Assembly (NCBI GenBank): GCA_013306675.1
Contig: JABLUY010000101.1
Location: 9,710 to 73,709, forward strand
Source of the DNA: Thraustochytrium sp. TN22
Taxonomy: Eukaryota > Sar > Bigyra > Thraustochytrida > Thraustochytriidae
Direction of reading: 5' to 3'
DNA: 64,000 bases
Under the pieces are notes generated by a model. That model did not search any database. It saw nothing but the letters and a program-made list of their open reading frames with translations, and was not told the DNA's origin. A program made the position numbers and the translations under genes. Shown here piece by piece: positions 47,129 to 61,966 of the stretch (positions are counted from its first letter, which is position 1; each line of letters begins with the position of its first letter).

Positions 47129-48232
47129 TTACACCTCGGCCAGGGTGGCAGTGCGCGCGTCCCCCGCGGCAGCGGAACCCTGACTTCCCGACATGTACTG
47201 GCCACTCAGTCGAACCGACTCGGTCTGCCGCGCCGTAAATCCAGACGGCGTGAGTAGGCGCCAGGACTTGTAGATGGAGAGTGCTACCAGGGTGGAGTAC
47301 ACCAGCGCTACCCACGTGAAGAACGCAAAGGCCGCCGCAGCACCCGCCTTTCCCTCGCCAATCTTGGCAGGGAAAAGCCCCTCCCCGAAGGAATCAACGA
47401 AGTTGCGGAAGGAGCGAAGCATCTGCGCGTTGGTCGCAGCAGCGGCGAAGGCTGTCAGCGAGAGCACCATGAGGATCGGATCCGCGATGCCCCCTACGAG
47501 AGCAAAGGAGTACGAGAGACGGTCTGAGTTGCGCGTCCCCAGCGTCAAGAACCCTACGCCCGCCGAGGCCCCGGCGTACAGGGTGACCATGAGCATCAGT
47601 ACAACCGTCCAGATGATACCAGACAACATGCCATCGAGAGGCGCGCTCTCCGTGGCGGACTTAAAATCGCTCATGGCGCTCGCAGCGCACGCCCAGGAGA
47701 TGAGCGAGAGTACGCCCTGAACCACGCGGGCCACGATGAGACAGTTCACGCTCGTCTGCACCTCCTCAGTCGTGTCCGCATCCGCGTTGATGCCCACAGA
47801 CGGTGCCCAGGAAGGAAGCATCTTCACCTCCAGCACTGGCGGCATAGATGCCCTTGACCGTCGCCGCTTGTCGTTGAAGGTGCCCTGCCCGCGCGACGAG
47901 GATGGGGACGTGCCCGCAAAGAAGTCAACGTGCGACCGATTCGCCTGGCTGCCCATGGACTCCCGCGCGCCCGTGGCGACCGGCGATGGCCTCCGGCTGG
48001 CCTCCTCCTGCAGCGTCGCATCATCCCCAACTTCCACAGGGATGGCCTCCTGCACCTCGCTCTGGCCCCGTTGCGCCTCCTGATCTTCCTGCTGCGCCGC
48101 ATTGGGCGCCGTGCTCTCCGTCTGCAAATCCACGGCGGCGGCCTGCGCCTCCGTCTGCGCGTCCTTCTGCGCGTCCGACTGCGCGTCCGCCTCGCCCGCG
48201 CTGCCGGCCGTGTCGGCTTCCTTGGCGCTCAT
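47129..48232 (-). CDS. Four-transmembrane CASP/MARVEL-like protein 1
   Basis: 367 residues from the ATG at 48232. Residues 1-140 are disordered, acidic and Gln/Ala-rich. Four hydrophobic helices lie at about 160-182, 200-224, 240-265 and 295-325, with NCLIVARVVQGVLSLISW, FLTLGTRNSDRLS and FALVGGIADPILMVLSL as recognisable stretches. The last helix ends in YKSWRLL, followed by a short Ser/Gly tail. The arrangement resembles CASP-like or MARVEL four-helix proteins, which organise membrane domains. A related protein is at 57272-58027, placed symmetrically about the rhodopsin pair. The function is inferred from topology only. Confidence 0.7.
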   Translation of the reverse strand: MSAKEADTAGSAGEADAQSDAQKDAQTEAQAAAVDLQTESTAPNAAQQEDQEAQRGQSEVQEAIPVEVGDDATLQEEASRRPSPVATGARESMGSQANRSHVDFFAGTSPSSSRGQGTFNDKRRRSRASMPPVLEVKMLPSWAPSVGINADADTTEEVQTSVNCLIVARVVQGVLSLISWACAASAMSDFKSATESAPLDGMLSGIIWTVVLMLMVTLYAGASAGVGFLTLGTRNSDRLSYSFALVGGIADPILMVLSLTAFAAAATNAQMLRSFRNFVDSFGEGLFPAKIGEGKAGAAAAFAFFTWVALVYSTLVALSIYKSWRLLTPSGFTARQTESVRLSGQYMSGSQGSAAAGDARTATLAEV

Positions 48233-48834
48233 GTTGCCGCTGGCGGCGCCGTCCCGGCCCTGCCCGTCCCGCCTGCGCGCCCGCTCGCTCGCCCGGGGCT
48301 CGGGCGCCCCGCCGCTGCGCCCGCTGCAGCCGCCGCCGCTGTCCCTCCTCGCGCGCGCGCCCGCTCGCCCGCTCGCTCGCTCGCTCGCGCAGCCGCCGCG
48401 GTGGTTGGGGTTCTGGCGGGCGTGGGCGGCGCTCGTCAGCGCCCTCACTCGCCTCGCAAACTCGCGTTGCTGAGGATCATGTGAGACACTCTGATCTCAT
48501 CTGACTGACGCGTCATCTGAGGCAGCTCCGATGTGCGCGCAAGGCGCGGTGCGGCACGCAAAGGCACGACGCAGCACGACCGCTGCCCGCAGCACGACCG
48601 CAGCACGACCGCAGCGCAGCGCAGCGCAGAGCGCCAAAAGTGACGAGAACTCGTGCTGGACTGCTCACTGTCAGGCAGGCAAGGGGCGGCAAGGGACGCA
48701 ATGGACTGCAGCACGGATGACGGGGCTCGCGCACGTGCCGTGGATTAACGTTAACGTTAGGCCTAAGCCTTACAGAGCTAGGCTAGACTGGCTGAGGCGA
48801 GGCGAGTGGTAGGATTCACATCAGAGGACTGCTC
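48233..48834. other. Intergenic region
   Basis: 602 bp between two minus-strand genes. GCTC repeats near 48360-48390 and a short direct repeat (cgcagcacgaccg) at about 48565-48625. No gene is recognised. Confidence 0.45.
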
Positions 48835-49680
48835 TTACCTACCCAACTTAGTCGGAAGGAGGTCTGCTCGGCCTTGACCTCGCTCAAGCTTGGCTTGCAG
48901 CAAGAGAAGGGCCGAGAGCAAGAGGCCCGTGGCATGGTGCGGGCGGAGAGATATGAAGTGAAGGCGGAGGAACGGCCGGGGCGAGCGCGCGCCAAGTCGC
49001 CAGCGCCGTGCCGCCAAAGCCTGCAGCGAGGAGCACGGAGAGCACTGGGGTAAAAAGACTTGCGGCGTGGGGCGGCGAAAGAGCGCGGAGAAGCGCGAGC
49101 GCGACTGAACGTGGTGCTCCTGCACTTTAATAGGCGGCATGTGGTCCGCGTAGAAGCCAGCGCGACCTGGGCGGCGCGTGCCACACGTGTGGCAGCCGTA
49201 CCGGCGGCCGAGGCGGGCCACAGCACGGCGCTCGGCGGGTTTGGCGTAGCGCGGACCGGCAGGCAGGCTCTCCCGCGCGAAGGCCCCGGGCCGAAGCACG
49301 TCGCTGGGGAGGACGCCCGCAAAGCTGCCGCCCAGCGCCTTGAAGGCGACGAGTGTCGCGCCCGTCCATGCCGCGCGGTCCCGGCGCGATGGCGCGCTCC
49401 CGCTTGTCTTCTCCTTGGAGTCCTGCACCAGCACTGAGGCGTCCAGAAGCGTGTGCGAAGCCTCTGCGGCAGCAGCCACGAGCGCCACCCCGGCACCCGA
49501 GCTGACCACCGGGATCGCGCAGCTGAGGCCGACGGCCGCGGCGGCCAGCTGGCCGGCCGCGAGCGCCGCCACGAAGGCCGCGCCGCCCGCCGCGCTCAGC
49601 GCCACGGCCGCGGGCACGCCGACCCGCGCGGCAGCGCCGCCGCCGCCGCCGCCGCCGCGAGGCTCGGCGGCGGCCTGCAT
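48835..49680 (-). CDS. Membrane-associated protein with HNH-like zinc module
   Basis: 281 residues from the ATG at 49680. A poly-Gly start leads into about three hydrophobic segments (residues 20-75, AAVALSAAGGAAFVAALAAG and following). Then comes RYGCHTCGTRRPGRAGFYAD followed by HMPP, and about 35 residues later FLPQCSPCSSLQA. The two C-x2-C pairs around D-H-x-P-P look like a zinc-bound treble clef of the HNH type, with ADH as the catalytic-like Asp-His. A second hydrophobic stretch (GLLLSALLLLQAK) is near the C-terminus. I recall similar uncharacterised eukaryotic proteins with CHTCG...DHxPP...PQC but no name. A membrane-tethered nuclease or zinc-structural protein are both possible. Confidence 0.65.
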   Translation of the reverse strand: MQAAAEPRGGGGGGGAAARVGVPAAVALSAAGGAAFVAALAAGQLAAAAVGLSCAIPVVSSGAGVALVAAAAEASHTLLDASVLVQDSKEKTSGSAPSRRDRAAWTGATLVAFKALGGSFAGVLPSDVLRPGAFARESLPAGPRYAKPAERRAVARLGRRYGCHTCGTRRPGRAGFYADHMPPIKVQEHHVQSRSRFSALFRRPTPQVFLPQCSPCSSLQALAARRWRLGARSPRPFLRLHFISLRPHHATGLLLSALLLLQAKLERGQGRADLLPTKLGR

Positions 49681-50210: not shown

Positions 50211-52350
50211 TCACATGTAGTCGACGCGGCTGTTGCGCGGGTCGCCGCGGCGCGGGCCGCTGCGCGGCGCTTCGTCGAAGGAACGGCGGCCAGTGCCGCG
50301 GGAGACGCCCGAATCGCCACGCTGGTAGGGCGGGCGTCCGCCCTCAAAGGAGATGCCACGACCGGAGTGCTGACGCTGCAAGCCGCGGTGATCGCGCTCA
50401 GCGAAGTCCTGCGAAGCGAAGCTCTGGCTGCGAGGGTAGGTCGAGGTCCGGGCGTTGGGCTCGTCAGGGCGGCCGCCGGGGTAAGGGCCGTACGGATCGT
50501 CGCGCACCTGGCCGGGGACGTGATGGGCGCCCGGGGCGGCGTGGGCAGAACGCGGGCTACGGGGCGTGTGGCTCTCGCGCGCGTACGGGTCTTGCGGTTG
50601 CATCGGGTAGCCGCCGCCTTCCGGGCGATGCGCGTAGGGCTCCTCGAAGCCGTGCTCGTCCGGGTAGCCACCGGCGTATCCGCGCTGAGCGCCGGAGAGA
50701 GCCTGATCCATGTCCCAGTGGTGAAAGTCTTCGCCGCGGTCCTCGGTCATGACGGAGCGATCGTCGTAGTTGCTGTCCCCAGCAGAGCGGGCGGTGGGGG
50801 AGCGATGGACACCCTGGACGTTGTCGTAGAGCTTGCGCTCAATGTCAGCGGTCACGTCAATGTCGCGCCAGTGGGAGGCAGCCTCCTTCCAGTGCACGAT
50901 GAGGTCATGCATGTGGGTCTCATCGAGCACATGGCGAATGATGCCGTCGCAGATGGTGCGCTGGCGCTCCTCGGTCTCGAGCAGTTCGATCATGTTGTCC
51001 TCATCGAAGGTGTAGCCGAGAACTGGAAGGTAGTACGGCTTGCGGTGGTAGTGGTTGCGGAAGCGCTGCACCTCGACGCGCTTCTCCGGCGAGAGCTTAA
51101 TGTTGACGAAGACGACGTGGTAGGTGCCGAGGTGGTCGCGCTTGAGCAGGTGCACCGCCATGTTGAGGTTGAAGGCGAACTCCGTGATGACACCGGTCTG
51201 GGAGAGCATGAGCGAGAACAGGCGCTGCATCTCGATACGCGGCTCGACAATGAGAACAGTCGGGCTCTTGCGGCCAATGGGGCGGCGCACGCGCTTCTTG
51301 CGCAGCGTCTCGTCTGTGACCTCACCCAGCTTGAACTGCTTCGCGGTGAAGTTCTGCGCGTACGGGGTGACGGCATTGTTGCCTACGGCACGAGCGTGGT
51401 ACGGGCCGAGCACCTCATAGTGGACGTACCAGATGAGGAAGACGAGGCCGTTCTTGGCAAAGAGGTCGGCAACAGCGTGAGAGATACGGTCCACCTGCGA
51501 GGTGAGGATGTTCAACATGGGCGGGCCCACCACGTAGAGGATAGGGTACACGCTCCACGTAATGGCCATCATACCAAGCGTCAGGCACACCCACTGCCAG
51601 GCACGCTCGTGCCGAGCAAAGTACTTGCGGCGGTGGTACGCGAGCAATCCAACGTCGTAGAAGACAGCGCCCATGGCAATGAAGGATACAACAATGAAGA
51701 CGGCCTTGAGACCAATGGCGCGCTGGAAACCACCAACCAAGCCTGTCGCAATCATGACGATGCACTTCATCATCACAAAGCTGACCTGGCCAGCGTCCAC
51801 CAGCTCAGGAGTCAGGCAGTTGAGCATCAGATTCATGTCGGCAAAAATCATCGGGCAGGTCACTGTTGGTACGTTGGGTAGCGTGCGTCAGTCACAACTG
51901 TCTTGCTTCCTTCTCAAAAGAGCACGTTTCTGTAGAGACTCGCCGAGGCGTGAAGATGAGGAGAATGTTTGCGCAAGAGTGAAACGTACTCAGCCAGTAG
52001 CTGTATCTGCCCAGGGCAAACTCAAAGGGCTCCTCGTTGCTGCCCTCGATGTTGACGTAGAAGTGGTCCGCATTGCCAAAGGTGTTCACGCTGTAAAAGC
52101 AGACCACAACCGCCTGCACGAAAATGGGCTGCGGGTTGCCACGGTTCTGATACAGCTGCGATGTGAAGAAGATGAGCAAAATGATGGAGCACGCAAAGAC
52201 GCAGAGGCTAGCGCCGAAAACACCAGACAGGTTTGTCTCCGTGCCGCTTGTCTCCTGGAGGGATCGGAACGTGGGCCACGTAAAGCGCCAGTTCGACTCG
52301 TCCTGCATGGCGTCAATGCCCATCTGGGCGCCGGCCATTAGGGTATCCAT
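50211..52350 (-). CDS. Channelrhodopsin-type microbial rhodopsin A fused to a receiver-like domain
   Basis: Exons 51990-52350 and 50211-51862 (intron 127 nt, GTACGT...CAG, phase 1) encode 670 residues. Seven helices fill residues ~45-275. Helix 3 reads RYSYWL-MTCPMIFAD across the splice (Arg115, Trp119, Cys123, Pro124, Asp129). Helix 6 has ITWSVYPILYVVGPP. Helix 7 reads HAVADLFAKNGL, with Asp253 and retinal-binding Lys257. Alignment with Chlamydomonas ChR2 is nearly gap-free. The ChR2 helix-2 glutamates and helix-3 Glu123 (here Tyr118) are neutral, which favours an anion channel. Cys154 replaces the Asp156 of ChR2. Residues ~330-440 form a receiver-like domain (TVLIVEPRIEMQRLF, HVVFVNIKLS, YYLPVLGYTF) without acidic pocket or phospho-Asp. 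A conserved helix (HVLDETHMHDLIVHWKEA) and an Arg/Pro-rich tail follow. Expected in plasma or flagellar membrane as a light sensor. Confidence 0.9.
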
Positions 52351-53311
52351 GGCGACCTCGGCGTGAACAGAACCCTTTCCGCGGCTTGTCACTTCTAAGC
52401 TTGCTGTCGCTGCGGCTGCTACTGATGGTCCGTCTTCTGCTTCGCTGCGCTGCCGCCAATGCCGGCCTGAGGCAGGCTCGCCTGCCTGCCTGAACTGCCC
52501 AGGCGCGGCACGCGGCCGAAAGAAGGTTTGCCGCCGGCTCGCACCAACGCGAGCTTGGCGACCACCCTCCACCAGCGAGCGAGTAGAATGAAGCACAGAT
52601 CCGGCGCGCTGGCAGCGTGCTTGCTACTCAACGGGTCGATCATGCAGATCGTTGGCCTGCCTTGGCGGCGACACAAACAGTGCGTCGCTGCCGCGCCGCT
52701 CTGAAATCCGTTCCGCGCCGCTCTCCAGTGCGAAACGCAGCGTCCACTCTGCAGGTGAAGTGCAGCCGTACAGTCTGCCCGCGTTCTCCAAGCCTTTGCG
52801 GTGCACAGTGTGACCGCTGTGCCGTACACGATACCGGCGCCTAGCCGTTTTTCGCGCGCGACCCGCCCGCCCGCTTGCCACTGTGGCAGCTCCGCGAGCG
52901 CGGACCCAAGCTTGGCGCAACGGCCTCTTGACACGTTCTAGCGTATGCACAGTGAACATCCAGAGGTAGCCGTTTCATGCAGATGGCAGGGGCCGCTCCG
53001 CACATCCCTGACGCGCGCATCAAGGCGAGCGCGTCATGCCGACCTCTCGATGTCCATGTCGCCGCGTCGCCTGGAGTCAGCTCCTTGGCAAAAGGTGTAC
53101 AGAACCGTTGAGGCAGGTGCTCATTTGACCCGACACAGTACCTCGCAACGCGACACAGTTGAGGGATCAACAATGCATTCCCGGGAGACAGCGTAACTTT
53201 CAAGCTCGCCAGCTAACGAACGAGACATGGCCAATTTGCTTGACATGGCATGACTCTGCGGCAACGCCGCTTACCCGAAAAACAAGGCGCGCTGATCGAT
53301 CGCCAGGTGCG

Positions 53312-53384
53312 GTAGCTAGCGGACACTAGTAGCTAGCTAGCTAGCTAGCTAGCTAGCTACTAGTAGCTAGCTAGCTAGCTAGAG
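53312..53384. repeat. (CTAG)n palindromic tract
   Basis: Runs of agctagctag bounded on both sides by actagtagctag/ctagctactagt, so the block at about 53326-53364 is a perfect palindrome. Confidence 0.9.
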
Positions 53385-53404
53385 CAAGCCTTCTGACTCG
53401 GGCT

Positions 53405-53452
53405 CAGGCCAGGCTCGGGCGCTCACTGCAGGCCAGGCTCGGGTGCTCACTG
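53405..53452. repeat. 24-bp tandem duplication
   Basis: Two copies of a unit containing aggccaggctcggg and ctcactg, one mismatch. Confidence 0.85.
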
Positions 53453-53701
53453 AAGTCATTGCGGTCTCAATCTCTAGCTGGCTAGGTAGCTAGGGTCCCT
53501 TACTATTACTCTAGAGCTAGCCTGGAGCTGGCCTGGCGAACGGAACATTCCGTCCACTGTGTGCCACTGACGCCCCCGTTGCGGTTCCGTTGGGGTATCC
53601 GGTGGAAGTAGCACCGGACTCCACTGTGCAGTTCTCTGCTGGCGAAAGGTGGCCGGCCGGCCGGCGGGCAGGCAGGCTACGCACATGCATGTATTTACAT
53701 G

Positions 53702-53815
53702 GCGTTGCGATGCGTTGTGATGCGTTGCATTGCGTTGCGTTGTGTTGCGTTGCGTTGTGTTGCGTTGCGTTGTGATGCGCGTTGTAATGCGATGCGATGC
53801 GTTGCGATGCGACGG
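53702..53815. repeat. GCGTT/GCGAT minisatellite
   Basis: About 20 imperfect 5-bp units of gcgtt, gtgtt, gcgat and tgatg type. Confidence 0.85.
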
Positions 53816-54171
53816 TGACGCAACGGGATGCGATGCGTTGCAACTTCGCACTGTCTTGCCTTGGTCTGTTGCCTCGAATACGTTTCCACTGCACTGTAGC
53901 GCACTGTGGCTGCACGCGCCCGCTTGGCTCGCCTCTTCGAGTTCCACGCGGCGCTCGCCGGATTTCTGGCGAGTTGCTTGAGAGGCTGCGCGAGCGAGCA
54001 TGGAAAGACGCGCCGCAAACCCCTTTCTTTCCGGGCGTGGCGTCGAGGCCGCGACAACCCGGGGCAAAGCAGGCAACAGGACAGGCAGGGAGCTAGGCCA
54101 ACCGGAGCCCGACTTCACCTTGCGAGCTAGCTGGCCGCCGCTCCGCTTGAGGCGCGAGACGAGCGAGCCAG

Positions 54172-56381
54172 ATGCAGGCCGCCGAGATGGGCGATATGAT
54201 CTCGGATATGTGGTCCGCTGACGTGAAGCAGCGCGTGCTGTCGGAGATTGTTTCGTCGGAGCTTGTTTCGAGTACCAAGGTGGTCTCGCAGGGCGTGGCC
54301 GGTGCCCGGCTGTGTACTTTTGCTTGCAGCATTGCGCTCCTCGTGTTCTACGCCTTCCAGTGGCGCGCGGGTCGCTGCAACCACCATCCCATCTACGTGC
54401 AGTTTGTGACCTTTTGTGTCTACGTGCTCTCCTGCTTCGGCACCACGGACTTCCTGTACATTCCCATCGAGGACCACAATGGCGTCGTCTTTGACCTCGC
54501 AATTGGCCGCTACCTCTTCTGGATGAGTAAGTCAACTCGGGCCTATGGTCTGCCGTCGTCACCTGGCCTTTGCTTTCCGGTATACTGATGCGCCCGCTCC
54601 CTGACACCTCTCGCAGCTACCTGCCCTGTGATCATTTCCAACGTAAACGTGCTGCTCAACATCATGACCCCCGACGATATTGAGCTGCCTAAAATCACAT
54701 TCATGATGGTGGAGGATATCGTCATGATCGCCTTCGGTGTGCTTGCGGCCATGCAAAAGAATCTCATGCTCAAGATCGTCTTCAACGTGCTCTCCTACCT
54801 CGTCAGCGTAAGTTTCTTCAGCACTCGTTCGCCCGAGTCTGTTTCGTGTGAAGTGCCCAAAACCACGAAAAATGCACTGTCACACCCCACGAGCAGACAA
54901 GCTGACCTACCTTCTCGCACTTGACTCAGTTTCTTCTGGCTTGGGATCTGTACAAGCAGATGCAGGAGAAGAAGAAGTTCTTCGCCAACCACGAGCGCTG
55001 CTGGGAGTGGGTGGTCTTCACCATGATCTGGTTCTACTGCTCCCAGTCGCTCTTCATCGTCCTGTACGCGGTGGGCCCGCCCTGCTTTGCCTGGATGGGC
55101 TCGGACGGCGATCGCATTGGCCACAGTGTCGGCGACCTTCTGGCCAAGAACCTCTTCGGCTTCCTCGTCTGGTACGTCCGCTTCGTTGTGCTTGACCCGT
55201 ACGTGAGGCGCATCCGCGGTGCTCGGGCTGTGTCGCCGTATGCGCACAAGAACCTCGTCACTTCCGGCGACACGCACAAGGATTCCTTCGTCTTGCGCAA
55301 GCATCTCAAGAAGGAGAACAAGTTCGGCGTGCGTGGCCCGCGTGTCCTCGTGATTGAGCCGCGCATCGAGCTGCAGCGTCTTTTCATGTTTCTCCTGCGT
55401 GAGGCCGGCATTGAGGGCGAGATTGCCTTCGATCTGCACTCTGCGACCAAGGTCATCAAGCGCGATGCCCTCACGCACTACGATGCGGTCATCCTGAACA
55501 TGGCAGTCGCTTTCGAGAACCGCTCCGACACTCAGAAGTTCCGCATGCACTTCCGCTGCAAGCCGTTCTACCTCCCGGTCCTCGGCTACTGCTTCGAGGA
55601 GGAGAGCTACGGTCCGCTCATCGAGCGCGAGGAGACCGAGCGCATGCTCGCGGACGGCTTCGTGCGCCACGTGCTCGACGAGGCCCACCTCTTCGACGTT
55701 CTTGCCCACTGGCGCGAGGCCTCCACGCATTGGCGCGAGATCGACGACTCTGCTGACATGGAGCGCCGCCTGCACCAGAACGTTCAGGGTGTTCACATGT
55801 CTCCGGTGATCGAGGACGACATTGGCGGCGTCAGTCTGGTGGACGGCTCTCACACGGACGACAACGAGATTTTCGAATCTGACGGTCATTCTGACGAGGC
55901 TAGCCTTTCCGGTTTTCCGCCCCCGGCCAGTCCTCCCGATAGCAAGCCCTCCCGCGCCCCACCCGCCAACCCGAGCACCCGCCCCCCCGGATCCAGCCGT
56001 GACACTTCCTCTGTGCACAGCACTGAGAACGCTCGCATCTCGCTCCGCCGCAAGAGCGCCTTTGAGGTCATGAACGAGAACCTTCGCCGCCAGCTTAAGC
56101 AGGAGGAGTCCACCTTCAACCGCCTTGCTCAGCAAGGCCACCACCACGCCGAGGACCACAACCCCGCTGAGACGCAGCAGTACCATGCTCCCCACCAGGA
56201 CCACGTCTCTCACCATCCGGCCCAGCTCGGCGGCGCGCCCACCGGCGCCGGCGCCGCTAACACGCCCGGCCCCATGATGACTGACGGCACCGACCATGAG
56301 GACGACCTCGATGACCTCGAAGAGGACGAGTCGGCCCCCAAGCGGCGCTCCAGCCTCATCATCAAGGGCTCCATGATGTAA
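54172..56381 (+). CDS. Channelrhodopsin-type microbial rhodopsin B fused to a receiver-like domain
   Basis: Exons 54172-54526, 54617-54807 and 54930-56381 (introns 90 and 122 nt, both GTAAGT...CAG) encode 665 residues. Helix 1 contains IALLVFYAFQ, very close to ChR2 ILLLMFYAYQ. Helix 3 across intron 1 reads RYLFWM-TTCPVIISN (Arg113, Trp117, Cys121, Pro122). Helix 4 has MMVEDIVMIAFG with Asp152, matching the ChR2 Asp156 partner of the cysteine. Helix 7 reads HSVGDLLAKNLFG with Asp251 and retinal-binding Lys255. Helix-2 glutamates are Thr/Ser/Thr and the helix-3 carboxylate is Phe116, as expected for an anion channel. Helix 6 is odd: SQSLFIVLYAVGPP, so the usual Trp and Pro are Gln221 and Ile225. 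A receiver-like domain (~320-430, RVLVIEPRIELQRLF, DAVILNMAVA, FYLPVLGYCF) lacks its phosphorylation residues. The tail is Pro/His/acidic. Confidence 0.9.
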
Positions 56382-57271: not shown

Positions 57272-58027
57272 ATGGGCTCCGATGCGGTCGTCGTCGATAG
57301 CGCCACGGTGCCCGAATCGCCTGGCGTGGTGAGCGTGGAGGAGGACTCTGGCACGCCGGAGGTGGACGGCTATGTGGACACCAGCCCGCCAGCGGTGCCG
57401 GTGCCAGCGGCTGCCCCGAAGGCTAAGAGCCGCGGTTTCCGTGGCAACGCAACATCATCCACGGGGCTCGTCGCCACCCTCGGCCTGCAGCCGACAACGC
57501 CTGCCCAGGCCGACGCCCTCGTCAAGCGTACAATGATCCTGCGAGGCGTGCAGTGCCTGCTCGCCCTCTTGGCACTGGCCCTGGCTGCTGCTGACAAGGA
57601 TTTTGTCGGCCTGAGCGGCGTTGATTGGGGCGTGGCCTGTGCGGCGCTCGCCTTTGCCTTCGCGCTTGCGCAGGTGGCCTTGAGCCTGCTGACGCTGTCC
57701 GCCGGGAAGCGCAATGACGTTGTCGTCAAGGCGCTCGTGGTCTCTGGCATCGCAGGGGACCTGCTCTTCTCCTATCTGGTGATGTCGTCCTTCTCGACCG
57801 TCGCGACAATCTCCGCACTCTGCGTTCCGATCAACATTAACACCGGCACGACGACCTACGTGCAGTCCTGCTCGACGATCCGGGCCGCGGCCGCCTTTGG
57901 CTTCTTCCTCTTTGCCTCCTTCGTCGCCGCTCTGCCGTTTTCCATGGCAATCTTCGTGCGTCGCGAGCTGCTTCCCGAGGATGCGCGTGCCACGCTGCGT
58001 CACGACGAGAACGACATTGGCGTGTAA
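57272..58027 (+). CDS. Four-transmembrane CASP/MARVEL-like protein 2
   Basis: 251 residues. A ~85-residue acidic and Pro-rich N-terminus precedes four helices at about 90-110, 118-142, 152-180 and 208-235. Recognisable stretches are MILRGVQCLLALLALAL, LLTLSAGKRNDVVVKALVV, SGIAGDLLFSYLVMSSFS and AAFGFFLFASFVAALPFS. They line up with the helices of the protein at 47129-48232 (RVVQGVLSLI, FLTLGTRNSDRLS, GGIADPILMVLSL, AAFAFFTWVALVY), so I regard them as paralogues. The short C-tail is acidic. It follows rhodopsin B on the same strand, as its paralogue follows rhodopsin A. The function is unknown; membrane-domain organisation is inferred from topology. Confidence 0.72.
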   Translation: MGSDAVVVDSATVPESPGVVSVEEDSGTPEVDGYVDTSPPAVPVPAAAPKAKSRGFRGNATSSTGLVATLGLQPTTPAQADALVKRTMILRGVQCLLALLALALAAADKDFVGLSGVDWGVACAALAFAFALAQVALSLLTLSAGKRNDVVVKALVVSGIAGDLLFSYLVMSSFSTVATISALCVPININTGTTTYVQSCSTIRAAAAFGFFLFASFVAALPFSMAIFVRRELLPEDARATLRHDENDIGV

Positions 58028-58154: not shown

Positions 58155-60192
58155 TCACTTGGACGCCGCTGGCAAAGAGAACTTGTCGGAGGCCTCGCCC
58201 TTTGCCGCTGCAACCGCCGCACCCACGTTGCCGCGCGGACGCTTGGCGCGCATCATCTCGTCGATGTCGCGCTGCGTATAAAAGTGAGGCGCAATCTCCA
58301 GGAGCCACTCTGGCTTGATGACGAGGATCTGCCGCATGTACTCTTGCTTGGTGCGCTGAAGCTGGTGGTAGAGCACGAGCTTCGGGAGCGGGTCGCGCTT
58401 GTGCAGGCTGCTCGAGGGATGCACATGCACGGCGTAATGGTCCTTGACCGTCTTGTAGGTGCCGTCCTTTTGCAGCTTGGCGGTGTGGAAGAAGTAGCCC
58501 GCCGTGACGGCCTTGCGAAGGTGGTCCGCGTCTGAGCTGGAGGTACGCTGCAGCTCGACCCGGTCGCACAGGTCGGCAAGCTGATCGCGCACGTCGCGCG
58601 CGCGGCGCATGCTTCGCACCTGCACAAAGTTCTCGTAGCACCATGCGGCGCTGAAGTTTGTCGCCGCCCATTGATCATACACAGCCTTGAGCACCATGTG
58701 GTCGCCAAAGGCGCCGTCGCCTTGCGCAAAGGTCTTGCGCGCCGTGTCCGCGTGCACCGCCTTGTCAGGCGGGCGATAAAAGACTGAGGCATTCACGTCC
58801 AGCATTGCGGATACGGTGAGTGCCTCCTCGACGCAGCCGTAGTGCTCTGCAGCCAGGAGCATCTTGGAGAGCATCGGGTCGCCTGGGAACTCGGCCATGC
58901 GGCGGCCCAGCTTGGTGAGCTCGCCTTTGTCAGTGAGCGCGCCCAAGGCATAGAGCTGCTGTAAGCAGCGGATGAGAGCCTCCGGCGGTGGCGGGTCCAT
59001 AAAGTCGAAGCCGATGAGGTCGTGGATGCCGAGGCTCTTGAGCGTGAGCACGACGGAGATGAGGTTACTTCGTTGGATCTCCGGAACCGTGTTCTCCTCA
59101 AGCTCGTGCTTGAACGACCACGCCGTGTAGAGCCGAAAACACTTGCCGGGCGCCGTGCGGCCGGCGCGGCCTGCGCGCTGCTGAGCTCCGGCTTGCGAGA
59201 CGGGCGTCACCATGAGCGAGTCCATGCCCGTGCGCGCGTCGTAGCTTGTCTGCTTGCAGAATCCCGTGTCGATCACGTAGCAGATGCCATCGATGGTGAG
59301 GGAGGTCTCGGCGATGTTGGTTGCTAGCACCACCTTGCGTGCCCCGCGCGGGGTAGGCACAAATACCTTGGCCTGCTCCTCGCTCGGCAGCGACGCGTAA
59401 ATGGGACAGATCAGCAGCTCCTTGATGCGCCCGCCCAGTCCGCGCGTGCGCTGCACGAGCGCGTCGCGCGCCGCCTCAATCTCCTCTTGGCCCGTGAAGA
59501 AGATCAGGATGTCACCTGGTGTGGGCTCGCTAATGTGGATCTGCAAAGTGGTCACCACCGCGGCGTCCAGGTAGTCTGCCTCCGGCGCCTTGGTGTGCAT
59601 GATGTCCACCGGGTACCGACGGCCGGGGATGTTGAAGATGGGCGCGCCGTCAAAATAGGCCGCGAACTTTTGCGCATCCAGTGTGGCGCTCGAGACGATC
59701 ACACGCAGATCCTTGCGGTGACGCGCAATGTCTTTGATAAGACCAAAGAGGATATCCGTGTTCAGCCCGCGCTCGTGCGCCTCGTCGATCATCATGGCAC
59801 TGTAGTCCGCCAGGTCGGGCGACGTCATGAACTCGCGCAGGAGCATGCCATCCGTCATGTACTTGATGAGCGTGCGATCCGATGTGCAGTCTTCGAAGCG
59901 GATCGCATAGCCGACCTCCCGCCCCAGCTTAACGTCCATCTCCTGCGCGACGCGAGCCGCCACGCTCATGGCCGCCACGCGCCGCGGCTGCGTGCACCCA
60001 ATCTTGCCCAGCTCCGAGTACCCGGCTTCGTGGATATACTGCGGGATTTGGGTTGTCTTGCCGGACCCGGTCTCTCCCACTACGATGAGGACCTGATGAT
60101 CTTTAATCGCACGCAAAAGCTCCTCGCGATACGGGAAGATTGGCAACGAAGCACGCACCTCCTGCATGGTCTTCGTCTTGTTCTCCTCTTCG

Positions 60193-60224
<32 letters not shown>

Positions 60225-61613
60225 CGACGACGTCCCTGCTGTCGCCGCCTGCTCCGACTCCGTCGCGCTGCGCGCCCCGCGCCACGCCGTCTTGGTGCCG
60301 GGAAGCCCTTTCTTGCTGCTTACAAAGTCGATCTCGCTCGCACGAATAAGCTCGTACGCCTGGTCGGCTGCAGACTCGAGACTGCTGTCGGCAGAGGGGA
60401 TCGCCGCGGCACCCGCGGCGCCGCGCGCGACCTTGGTCTGCTGCTCCTCCCAGACTTCGTGCTCCGTCTTGCCGCGCTGCGAGTCGTCATGGTACCGCTG
60501 AGTGAGGAGTGCCTCGCGACGTTTCGCGTCGACGCGGCCCTCCTCGTCCGCGTACGAGTCCGGCAGCTGGTAGAACTCACCCTCGCGTTCACGCTGGATG
60601 TTCTTGCGGCCCTCCACGAGCCGCAGGAGCTCTTTGCGAGCCTCCAGGTCACGCTTCTCCTTGTCGGTAAGCTTCGCTCCATCAAACAGCATCTCCTCGT
60701 CCTGGATGCTTGCCTTGAGAAGCTTGAGCTCCCGATCCTCGCGCTTTTGCAAGTACGCGTAGCGCGACTCTTGCCGGAGCTCTTCCACCGTGAACTCGCT
60801 GCGCAGCCGCTCGCTCTCGCTCTGGATCTCCTTAAGCTTCTTCTCGTGCTTCTCGCGCTCCTTCTCGGCGGCGCGCCGCTTCAGGCGCTCGCCCTCCTCT
60901 TTGCCATCCGCGCCGCTGCCCACGAAGGCATGAAATTCGCGCAGCTTGCGTTCGTGCTCAGTCTCCTTCGCAGAGGAGCCCTCCTCCTTGTCCGCATTGT
61001 CTCCGCTGGGGCTGGGCGCCCCTTCTGCTCCTTGGTCCACTTCCTCGTCCTCTTCGTCCTCGCTGCGGTCGCCAGGGATCACCACGGGCAGGTCTTCTTC
61101 TGCGAATCCATCCTCGGTCGGCGCATGAAGTCGCTCAGCGCGCGCCTCACGGCGCTCTCGCCGGCGCTCCTCGCGGCTGCTTGCCTTGGCATCCTCGTCC
61201 TCGTCCCCTTCGGAGCCATCGCGCCTAGACGACCTGGACTTCTTCTTGTTTTTCTTCTCCTTCTTCTCCTTCTTCTCTTTGCGCTCGCGCTTACGTTTGC
61301 GATCCGTGTCCACGCCTGGGTCATCCAGCACCAGGCTGTAGGACCCAGCACTCGCCGCAGGATCGGCGCTTTGGCTCACGTTGCTGCTGCTGCTGCTGCT
61401 GCTGTTGCCGCGTCCCGTGCGCGCCAGAAGCGCCTCAGCGAAGCGATGCGTGCGCGCGTCTCGCGGAAAGTCGTACGCCTGCAGCTGCCGCACGACATCC
61501 GCCGCGCTGCTGGCGGACCTGCCCAGCGCCAGCACGAAGTCCTCCGCCGCGCGCTCGCTAAAGCCCAGGAGCGAGTGCAGCTCGTCGCTCACCCACCGCC
61601 GATCGCTCGCCAT
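58155..61613 (-). CDS. DHX16: DEAH-box spliceosomal helicase DHX16/Prp2
   Basis: 1,152 residues from the ATG at 61613. The N-terminus [20 protein letters not shown] matches DHX16 (RWVQDELHSVLGLSER), which separates it from DHX8, DHX15 and DHX38. A charged linker (about 90-440) precedes the helicase core: [46 protein letters not shown] and QRAGRAGR. The winged-helix, ratchet and OB-fold regions follow to the C-terminus ([20 protein letters not shown]). Prp2 remodels the activated spliceosome before the first transesterification. The linker is rich in Lys/Glu and Ser, and a poly-Ser run is encoded at about 61385-61405. The open frame upstream of this ATG is low-complexity Gly/Arg and probably untranslated. 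Confidence 0.95.
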
Positions 61614-61679
61614 CCTCGCCCTCGCGCCGAGCCGCGCCGCGCCGCGCCGCGCAGTCTGCCGCAACCGTGTGCCGCCGCG

Positions 61680-61714
<35 letters not shown>

Positions 61715-61966
61715 TGTTGCGGCGCAGGAGCGGCACGCCGCGTTCGGGTTCTGCCACTGCTGCTCCACGGCGCGCGGGTGGTGGGTGCGGCGGGCCGCCT
61801 GACCCGCACGGCGCGGCGCACGGGTACGAGCGCGAGCCGATGAGCGAGCAACTTGAAGCGAAGGGACAATTTCCGGTTTGATTACATCAGCTCGGCTCAG
61901 CTCTGTGAGCGAGCGCTGCGCAGCGCGGTGCGCGGCGGGGCAAGCTCAATCATGACGTGTGAATGA

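Follow-up and report, generated by a model that had tools for sequence, protein, structure and literature searches.

What does a receiver-like signaling domain do on a light-gated channel? The question is raised by two rhodopsin genes of Thraustochytrium sp. TN22, here called A and B, which lie head-to-head at positions 50,211 to 56,381 of a 64,000-nucleotide stretch of DNA (contig JABLUY010000101.1, positions 9,710 to 73,709 of the forward strand; here referred to as the window). Each is an intact, intron-bearing gene that encodes a seven-helix rhodopsin and a receiver-fold domain in one open reading frame (ORF). The source genome comprises 37.9 Mb in 453 contigs, and the GC content of the window is 56 to 75% in 2-kb steps. 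A first-pass annotation of the window had proposed the pair, and both coding regions are indeed present and intact. In the analysis described below, the tail retains the receiver fold but has lost its phosphorylation site in all ten relatives compared, namely, A, B, their paralogues C and D, and six further proteins (P0001 to P0006).

Gene A is on the minus strand and encodes 670 amino acids, starting at the first in-frame ATG after an upstream stop. Exon 1 (52350-51990) covers amino acids 1 to 120 and the first base of codon 121 (N-terminus, helices 1 and 2, and the start of helix 3). It is followed by a phase 1 intron (51863-51989; GTACGT...CAACAG) and by exon 2 (51862-50211), which runs from the rest of codon 121 to amino acid 670 and the stop codon and holds helices 3 to 7, the linker, the receiver-like domain, and the tail end. 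Gene B, on the plus strand, encodes 665 amino acids in three exons, 54172-54526 (helices 1 and 2 and the start of helix 3), 54617-54807 (approximately helices 3 to 5), and 54930-56381 (amino acids 183 to 665; approximately helices 5 to 7, linker, receiver-like domain, and low-complexity tail), with introns at 54527-54616 and 54808-54929. All three introns have GT-AG borders, and intron 1 has an identical site and phase in the two genes, directly before the TCP motif of helix 3; B has the second intron in addition. GC fractions at codon positions 1, 2, and 3 are 0.62, 0.43, and 0.82 in A and 0.61, 0.39, and 0.82 in B (introns overall, 0.50 to 0.60), and the two proteins are 38% identical across 574 alignment columns. 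With coordinates derived from the exon models, the retinal Schiff-base lysine is Lys257 in A (51453-51455) and Lys255 in B (55146-55148). The receiver-like domains span 50877-51269 in A (amino acids 319 to 449) and 55332-55724 in B (amino acids 317 to 447), and a tblastn search with a paralogue receiver as the query matched the window at 50883-51260 and 55341-55721, respectively. A chance ORF or a separate gene as the source of the tail was ruled out, since the junction between helix 7 and the receiver is intron-free in both gene models and the fusion recurs in all relatives that cover the region.

The first-pass annotation had described a receiver-like domain on each protein, and this fold, a (beta-alpha)5 arrangement, finds support in a profile search, in a comparison of profiles with profiles, and in the predicted structure. 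A Pfam scan of the tails of A, B, C, and D did not call a receiver (for A and B, even at an E value of 10), and P0005 is the only relative whose tail gives a Response_reg match, at an E value of 0.011 and under the cut-off. The tail shares its fold and a long last helix with the receiver domains of SLN1, NtrX, and PleD/DgcR but, unlike them, lacks the phospho-acceptor Asp and the second metal-binding acid. At the end of beta3, Asn replaces the phospho-acceptor in 10 of 10 relatives (Asn374 in A; Asn372 in B, 55497-55499). The acid pair at the end of beta1 reads Glu-Pro in nine and Glu-Asn in one, with the first Glu kept throughout, and the approximate region of the beta5 Lys reads [RHK]-H-x-L-D-E in nine of nine. 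Because both the phospho-acceptor and the second acid are gone in every relative, ordinary phosphotransfer through the tail is unsupported, as is a two-component mechanism. The genome also contains 24 canonical receiver matches, which point to an ordinary phosphorelay in the cell; the two that were read belong to probable hybrid histidine kinases, judged by motif, and have Glu-Asp and the phospho-acceptor Asp. Histidine-kinase rhodopsins and two-component cyclase opsins likewise combine a rhodopsin and a receiver fold in one chain, but there the protein's own histidine kinase phosphorylates the receiver (PMC12558739), whereas a Pfam scan of A and B detected no kinase domain. In modular channelrhodopsins, a channel is likewise paired with an effector-type tail (FimV, MED15, or UL36), but none of these three, as listed in PMC7693036, has a receiver.

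Both seven-helix domains match the Pfam family Bac_rhodopsin above the cut-off (E values of 2.9e-21 for A and 2.4e-19 for B), and the Schiff-base Lys of helix 7 is kept in 10 of 10 relatives. Seven helices, the helix-3 CP, and the DxxxK motif are shared with C1C2, ChR2, Chrimson, and KnChR. In contrast, A and B are only 19 to 25% identical to the C1C2 and Chrimson segments, and, as the first-pass annotation had read them, the sites of the helix-2 glutamates Glu90, Glu97, and Glu101 are neutral (Thr/Ser/Thr in B; Val/Asn/Asn in A), as is that of Glu123 (Phe in B; Tyr in A). Loss of the Glu90 homologue has been described for Labyrinthulea channels (PMC8406140). KnChR differs further in its tail, which is FimV (PMC7902849). 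Among the other motifs ascribed earlier to both proteins, R-Y-x-x-W, C-P, GPP, and D-x3-K occur in both, but FYAFQ occurs in B only (A reads FFTSQ), and the supposedly almost gap-free alignment with ChR2 has a few small gaps when B is set against ChR2-type chains.

When B was compared with solved structures by phmmer, its first nine matches were all channelrhodopsin chains, with C1C2 at the top (E value of 1.5e-17). Its best protein match is FCC1311_007872 of Hondaea fermentalgiana (P0001), which is 61% identical over 98% of B and 74% identical in the rhodopsin domain. HfACR1 has been reported to carry Phe104, Met143, and Ala242 (PMC12448745); P0001 has F104, M143, and A242 at exactly these residue numbers, and from these three numbers we infer that P0001 is HfACR1. 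HfACR1, too, has chlorophyte and streptophyte channelrhodopsins as its nine best solved-structure matches, and with HfACR1 as the query, cryptophyte anion channelrhodopsins (ACRs), KCRs, and ChRmine score far under C1C2. The sequence comparison places B nearer to channelrhodopsins than to ion pumps and supports it as an orthologue of HfACR1, a characterized RubyACR. B has the same domain order as HfACR1 and the same RubyACR pocket set (F, M, N, Y, Q, I, and A), with Phe at the position of bacteriorhodopsin (BR) D85, Met at BR-118, Ala at BR-215, Tyr in transmembrane helix 5 (TM5), and Gln/Ile in TM6. The full set of TM5 Asn/Tyr and TM6 Gln/Ile is found only in B, P0001, and P0002 among the ten relatives. 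Tyr, Gln, and Ile at these sites are listed as unique to RubyACRs (PMC11473104), the MsACR1 positions of that paper having been mapped onto our alignment by our own matching. HfACR1 has a strongly red-shifted action spectrum, up to 610 nm (PMC8818676), and by kinship B would be expected to absorb red light and to select anions.

By kinship, A is probably another member of the channelrhodopsin family, an older paralogue apparently orthologous to Hondaea FCC1311_007882 (P0003). It is 37 to 42% identical to six family members and groups with them in a rhodopsin tree of 13 rows, where C1C2, Chrimson, and a single bacteriorhodopsin fragment serve as the sole outsiders. The likely orthologues P0003 and P0006 have tails 76 to 79% identical to that of A. 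A keeps Lys257, the TCP motif, and the TM7 Asp. The RubyACR pocket is absent: Met and Ala are kept, but the BR-D85 position holds Tyr, TM5 has Phe, and TM6 has Trp/Pro, which rules out that A and B are both RubyACRs. The earlier naming of RubyACRs as the nearest relatives is supported for B. The Hondaea locus tags FCC1311_007872 and FCC1311_007882 are ten apart, and both genes are recorded on a contig of 535,287 in length; if Hondaea tags step by ten, the two genes are neighbors and the pair arose before the two species diverged.

How far does the fusion extend? A search of the genome with a rhodopsin profile gave four matches, A, B, C404, and C443, and all four are fused to the receiver-like tail. 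The two further channelrhodopsin-family genes (L001 97-2223, minus strand; L002 1411-3402, plus strand) encode paralogues C (708 amino acids) and D (663 amino acids from the chosen ATG). They are intronless ORFs with the same dead receiver and a C-terminal MYND finger (Pfam E values of 5.1e-8 and 2.4e-8 for C and D), a protein-binding module; their counterion site is occupied by Ser or Val, and a Gly precedes the retinal Lys. No free-standing copy of the tail was found in the genome at E values up to 0.1 with the D tail as the query, which matched only the four genes. The domain is present in the nine of ten relatives whose sequences extend to its end; P0004 stops inside it, after the Asn. P0005 (535 amino acids), a distant relative 26% identical to B, has the same fusion of a rhodopsin to an Asn-type receiver, and the fusion therefore probably predates the divergence from Hondaea. 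P0001 to P0005 were found under a length limit of 0.55 to 1.75 times the query, with the best 8,000 candidates scored per search, and P0006 was found with the tail itself as the query; tail presence is therefore partly built in for these six proteins, and C and D alone, which came from the rhodopsin profile, are unbiased in this respect. The fusion, which the first-pass annotation had called unusual, is real, but its presence in P0001 and in all four rhodopsin genes detected ruled out that it is peculiar to the A/B pair. A scan of viral contigs with the family alignment yielded 63 pattern matches and no confirmed relative. We found no published account of a receiver-like channelrhodopsin tail in the literature searched, although the PNAS 2020 paper on RubyACRs may describe the tail or the second Hondaea gene.

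The conservation of the two domains sets A apart, and this pattern is newly reported here: in A-type proteins the tail is far more conserved than the channel, unlike in B-type proteins and in C and D. In the three A-type pairs, the receiver is 76 to 89% identical and the channel core is 42 to 63% identical (core versus receiver, 98/231 versus 99/131 for A and P0003, 102/231 versus 103/131 for A and P0006, and 146/232 versus 116/131 for P0003 and P0006). The three B-type pairs are about equal in the two domains (182/231 versus 99/130, 171/231 versus 97/131, and 195/231 versus 108/130), and between C and D the tail is the less conserved part (163/228 versus 82/130). On a fixed topology with eight of the ten proteins (excluding the incomplete P0004 and P0005), separate branch lengths for each domain fit better than proportional ones by 47.3 log-likelihood units with 12 parameters (Akaike information criterion difference, 70.6; Bayesian information criterion difference, 22.7; P = 6e-15). 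Pairwise z values are 3.8 to 5.6 in size, from pairs that overlap and so are nonindependent. In the receiver-region tree, no branch was starred and the outgroup was very long, and only identities were used from it. The identities and the rate comparison indicate that selection in the A branch has constrained the tail more tightly than the channel, and this is what mainly leads us to believe that the tail has its own function.

The surroundings of the pair are nearly symmetrical. On the A side is a MARVEL-like membrane protein gene (ORF extent 47129-48448, minus strand; Pfam E value of 1.8e-6, 28.5 bits, under the cut-off of 32.8), and on the B side, in mirror orientation, is a MARVEL/CASP-like membrane protein gene (57272-58027, plus strand; E value of 7.6e-8, 32.9 bits, cut-off of 32.8). 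These are the only two matches in the genome at E values of 0.001 or lower in a six-frame search, which may miss intron-split genes, and that the sole two detected MARVEL-type genes of the genome flank the pair is a second new observation. The flanks could have arisen by mirror duplication of a block of MARVEL and channel genes, and the MARVEL-type proteins could be accessory to the channels. The two proteins are barely similar (29% identity over 66 amino acids; E value of 0.038), and the symmetry is imperfect, since a 281-amino-acid ORF with no Pfam match and with a C-H-T-C-G ... D-H-x-P-P motif (48835-49680, minus strand) sits between A and the A-side MARVEL gene. Between the start codons of A and B are 1,821 bp (52351-54171) that might serve as a shared promoter region. 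This interval holds tandem repeats of CTAG and GCGTT (53326-53382 and 53702-53811). Beyond the B-side MARVEL gene, a 1,200-amino-acid ORF on the minus strand (58155-61757) encodes a helicase of the DEAD/DEAH type that has HA2 and OB-fold domains. The genome also contains two RPE65-type matches, compatible with a supply of retinal.

The explanation that we favor, with moderate confidence, is that B is a red light-gated anion channel, that A is a companion rhodopsin, and that both tails are dead receivers used for docking or dimerization. Light would isomerize the retinal on Lys255 of B and open an anion path through the seven-helix domain, and the current would shift the membrane potential; by analogy with relatives, the likely setting is the flagellate zoospore and the likely purpose phototaxis. 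A would be a companion paralogue of ancient origin whose pocket and pore are distinct and evolve faster; it probably binds retinal as well, but with another color, another conductance, or none. The degenerate receiver fold, without a phospho-acceptor, would act as a constitutive docking or dimerization module in which the long last helix and the conserved beta5-alpha5 face join subunits or anchor a partner, and channel position or conformation would reach the cytoplasm without phosphotransfer. Several observations weigh against this explanation. A joins P0003 and P0006 with support values of only 80/89 in a tree that carries long-branch warnings, and its best phmmer match, Chrimson (2.3e-9), is closely followed by bacteriorhodopsins (5.7e-9). 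The channel core of A is only 42 to 44% identical to those of P0003 and P0006, from which it also differs at the counterion site (Tyr instead of Phe) and at the Asp of the DC gate (Cys instead); Chrimson also has Cys at this place in the phmmer alignment, and for this reason we rejected loss of function as a reading of the gate residue. In the tail, a zinc-finger repeat protein ranked second in the profile search (E value of 0.00066, with no single stretch passing), and the sequence-based receiver matches span mainly the first two-thirds of the domain. The mean predicted local distance difference test (pLDDT) score of the tail model is 70, falling to 65 to 67 in the outer last helix, and that of the full-length HfACR1 model is 49, too low for use in a fold search. 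Finally, the seven-transmembrane domain is described as sufficient by itself for channel activity (PMC12448745), and in KnChR the distal FimV domain had no effect on channel function, in contrast to membrane-near residues (PMC7902849), so conductance need not depend on a folded tail.

The strongest competitor, to which we give somewhat less than an even chance, is that the tail is solely a trafficking or anchoring tag that leaves the photocycle unaffected, which overlaps with the docking part of the favored explanation. The extra MYND finger of C and D fits such a tag, as does the report that the cytoplasmic domain of the Chlamydomonas reinhardtii channel serves localization and protein binding and not cation transport (PMC10637977). 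However, full-length GtACR1 cycles approximately threefold more slowly than its tail-less form, which shows that tails can act on the channel, although the GtACR1 tail is described as disordered, unlike those of A and B (PMC10637977). It is also conceivable, if unlikely, that A is no longer a channel and acts through its tail as a sensory or regulatory rhodopsin subunit, perhaps as a heterodimer partner of B. The excess of tail over core conservation confined to A-type proteins, the better fit of separate domain branch lengths, the head-to-head pairing with its Hondaea locus tags ten apart, and the precedent of heterodimeric rhodopsins such as RGC1/2 with NeoR (PMC7655827) speak for this, but A has its retinal Lys, TCP, and TM7 Asp intact, its fast evolution could be tuning of color or selectivity, and the contrast could reflect constraint on the tail alone. 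We consider more doubtful still the bolder proposal that A and B are obligate partners in a two-color heteromeric photoreceptor, clamped together via the dead receivers, expressed from one divergent promoter region, possibly joined by the flanking MARVEL proteins, and signaling via the receiver face as well as ions. Least probable by a wide measure is two-component control, in which a hybrid histidine kinase would pass phosphate to a tail that still works as a receiver and thereby tunes the channel. The receiver fold, the first-acid Glu kept in all ten relatives, and the canonical receivers of the genome, two of them in apparent hybrid histidine kinases, would suit it, but those two have the Glu-Asp pair and the phospho-acceptor Asp, whereas all ten tails have Asn for the phospho-acceptor and have lost the second acid, and the usual Lys region reads H-x-L-D-E in nine of nine.

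The role of channelrhodopsin tails has been called unclear or elusive, and most work has used truncated proteins (PMC12448745, PMC10637977, and PMC7902849). Here, a folded and conserved tail with a signaling fold and a disabled switch is present in every relative examined, including P0001, the presumed HfACR1, among the reddest anion channels known, and the question of what such tails do becomes testable via defined domains. For optogenetics, B adds another natural RubyACR candidate, and A offers a comparison for the contribution of the RubyACR pocket. Light sensors that carry a signaling domain without its switch suggest that these proteins do more in the cell than pass ions.

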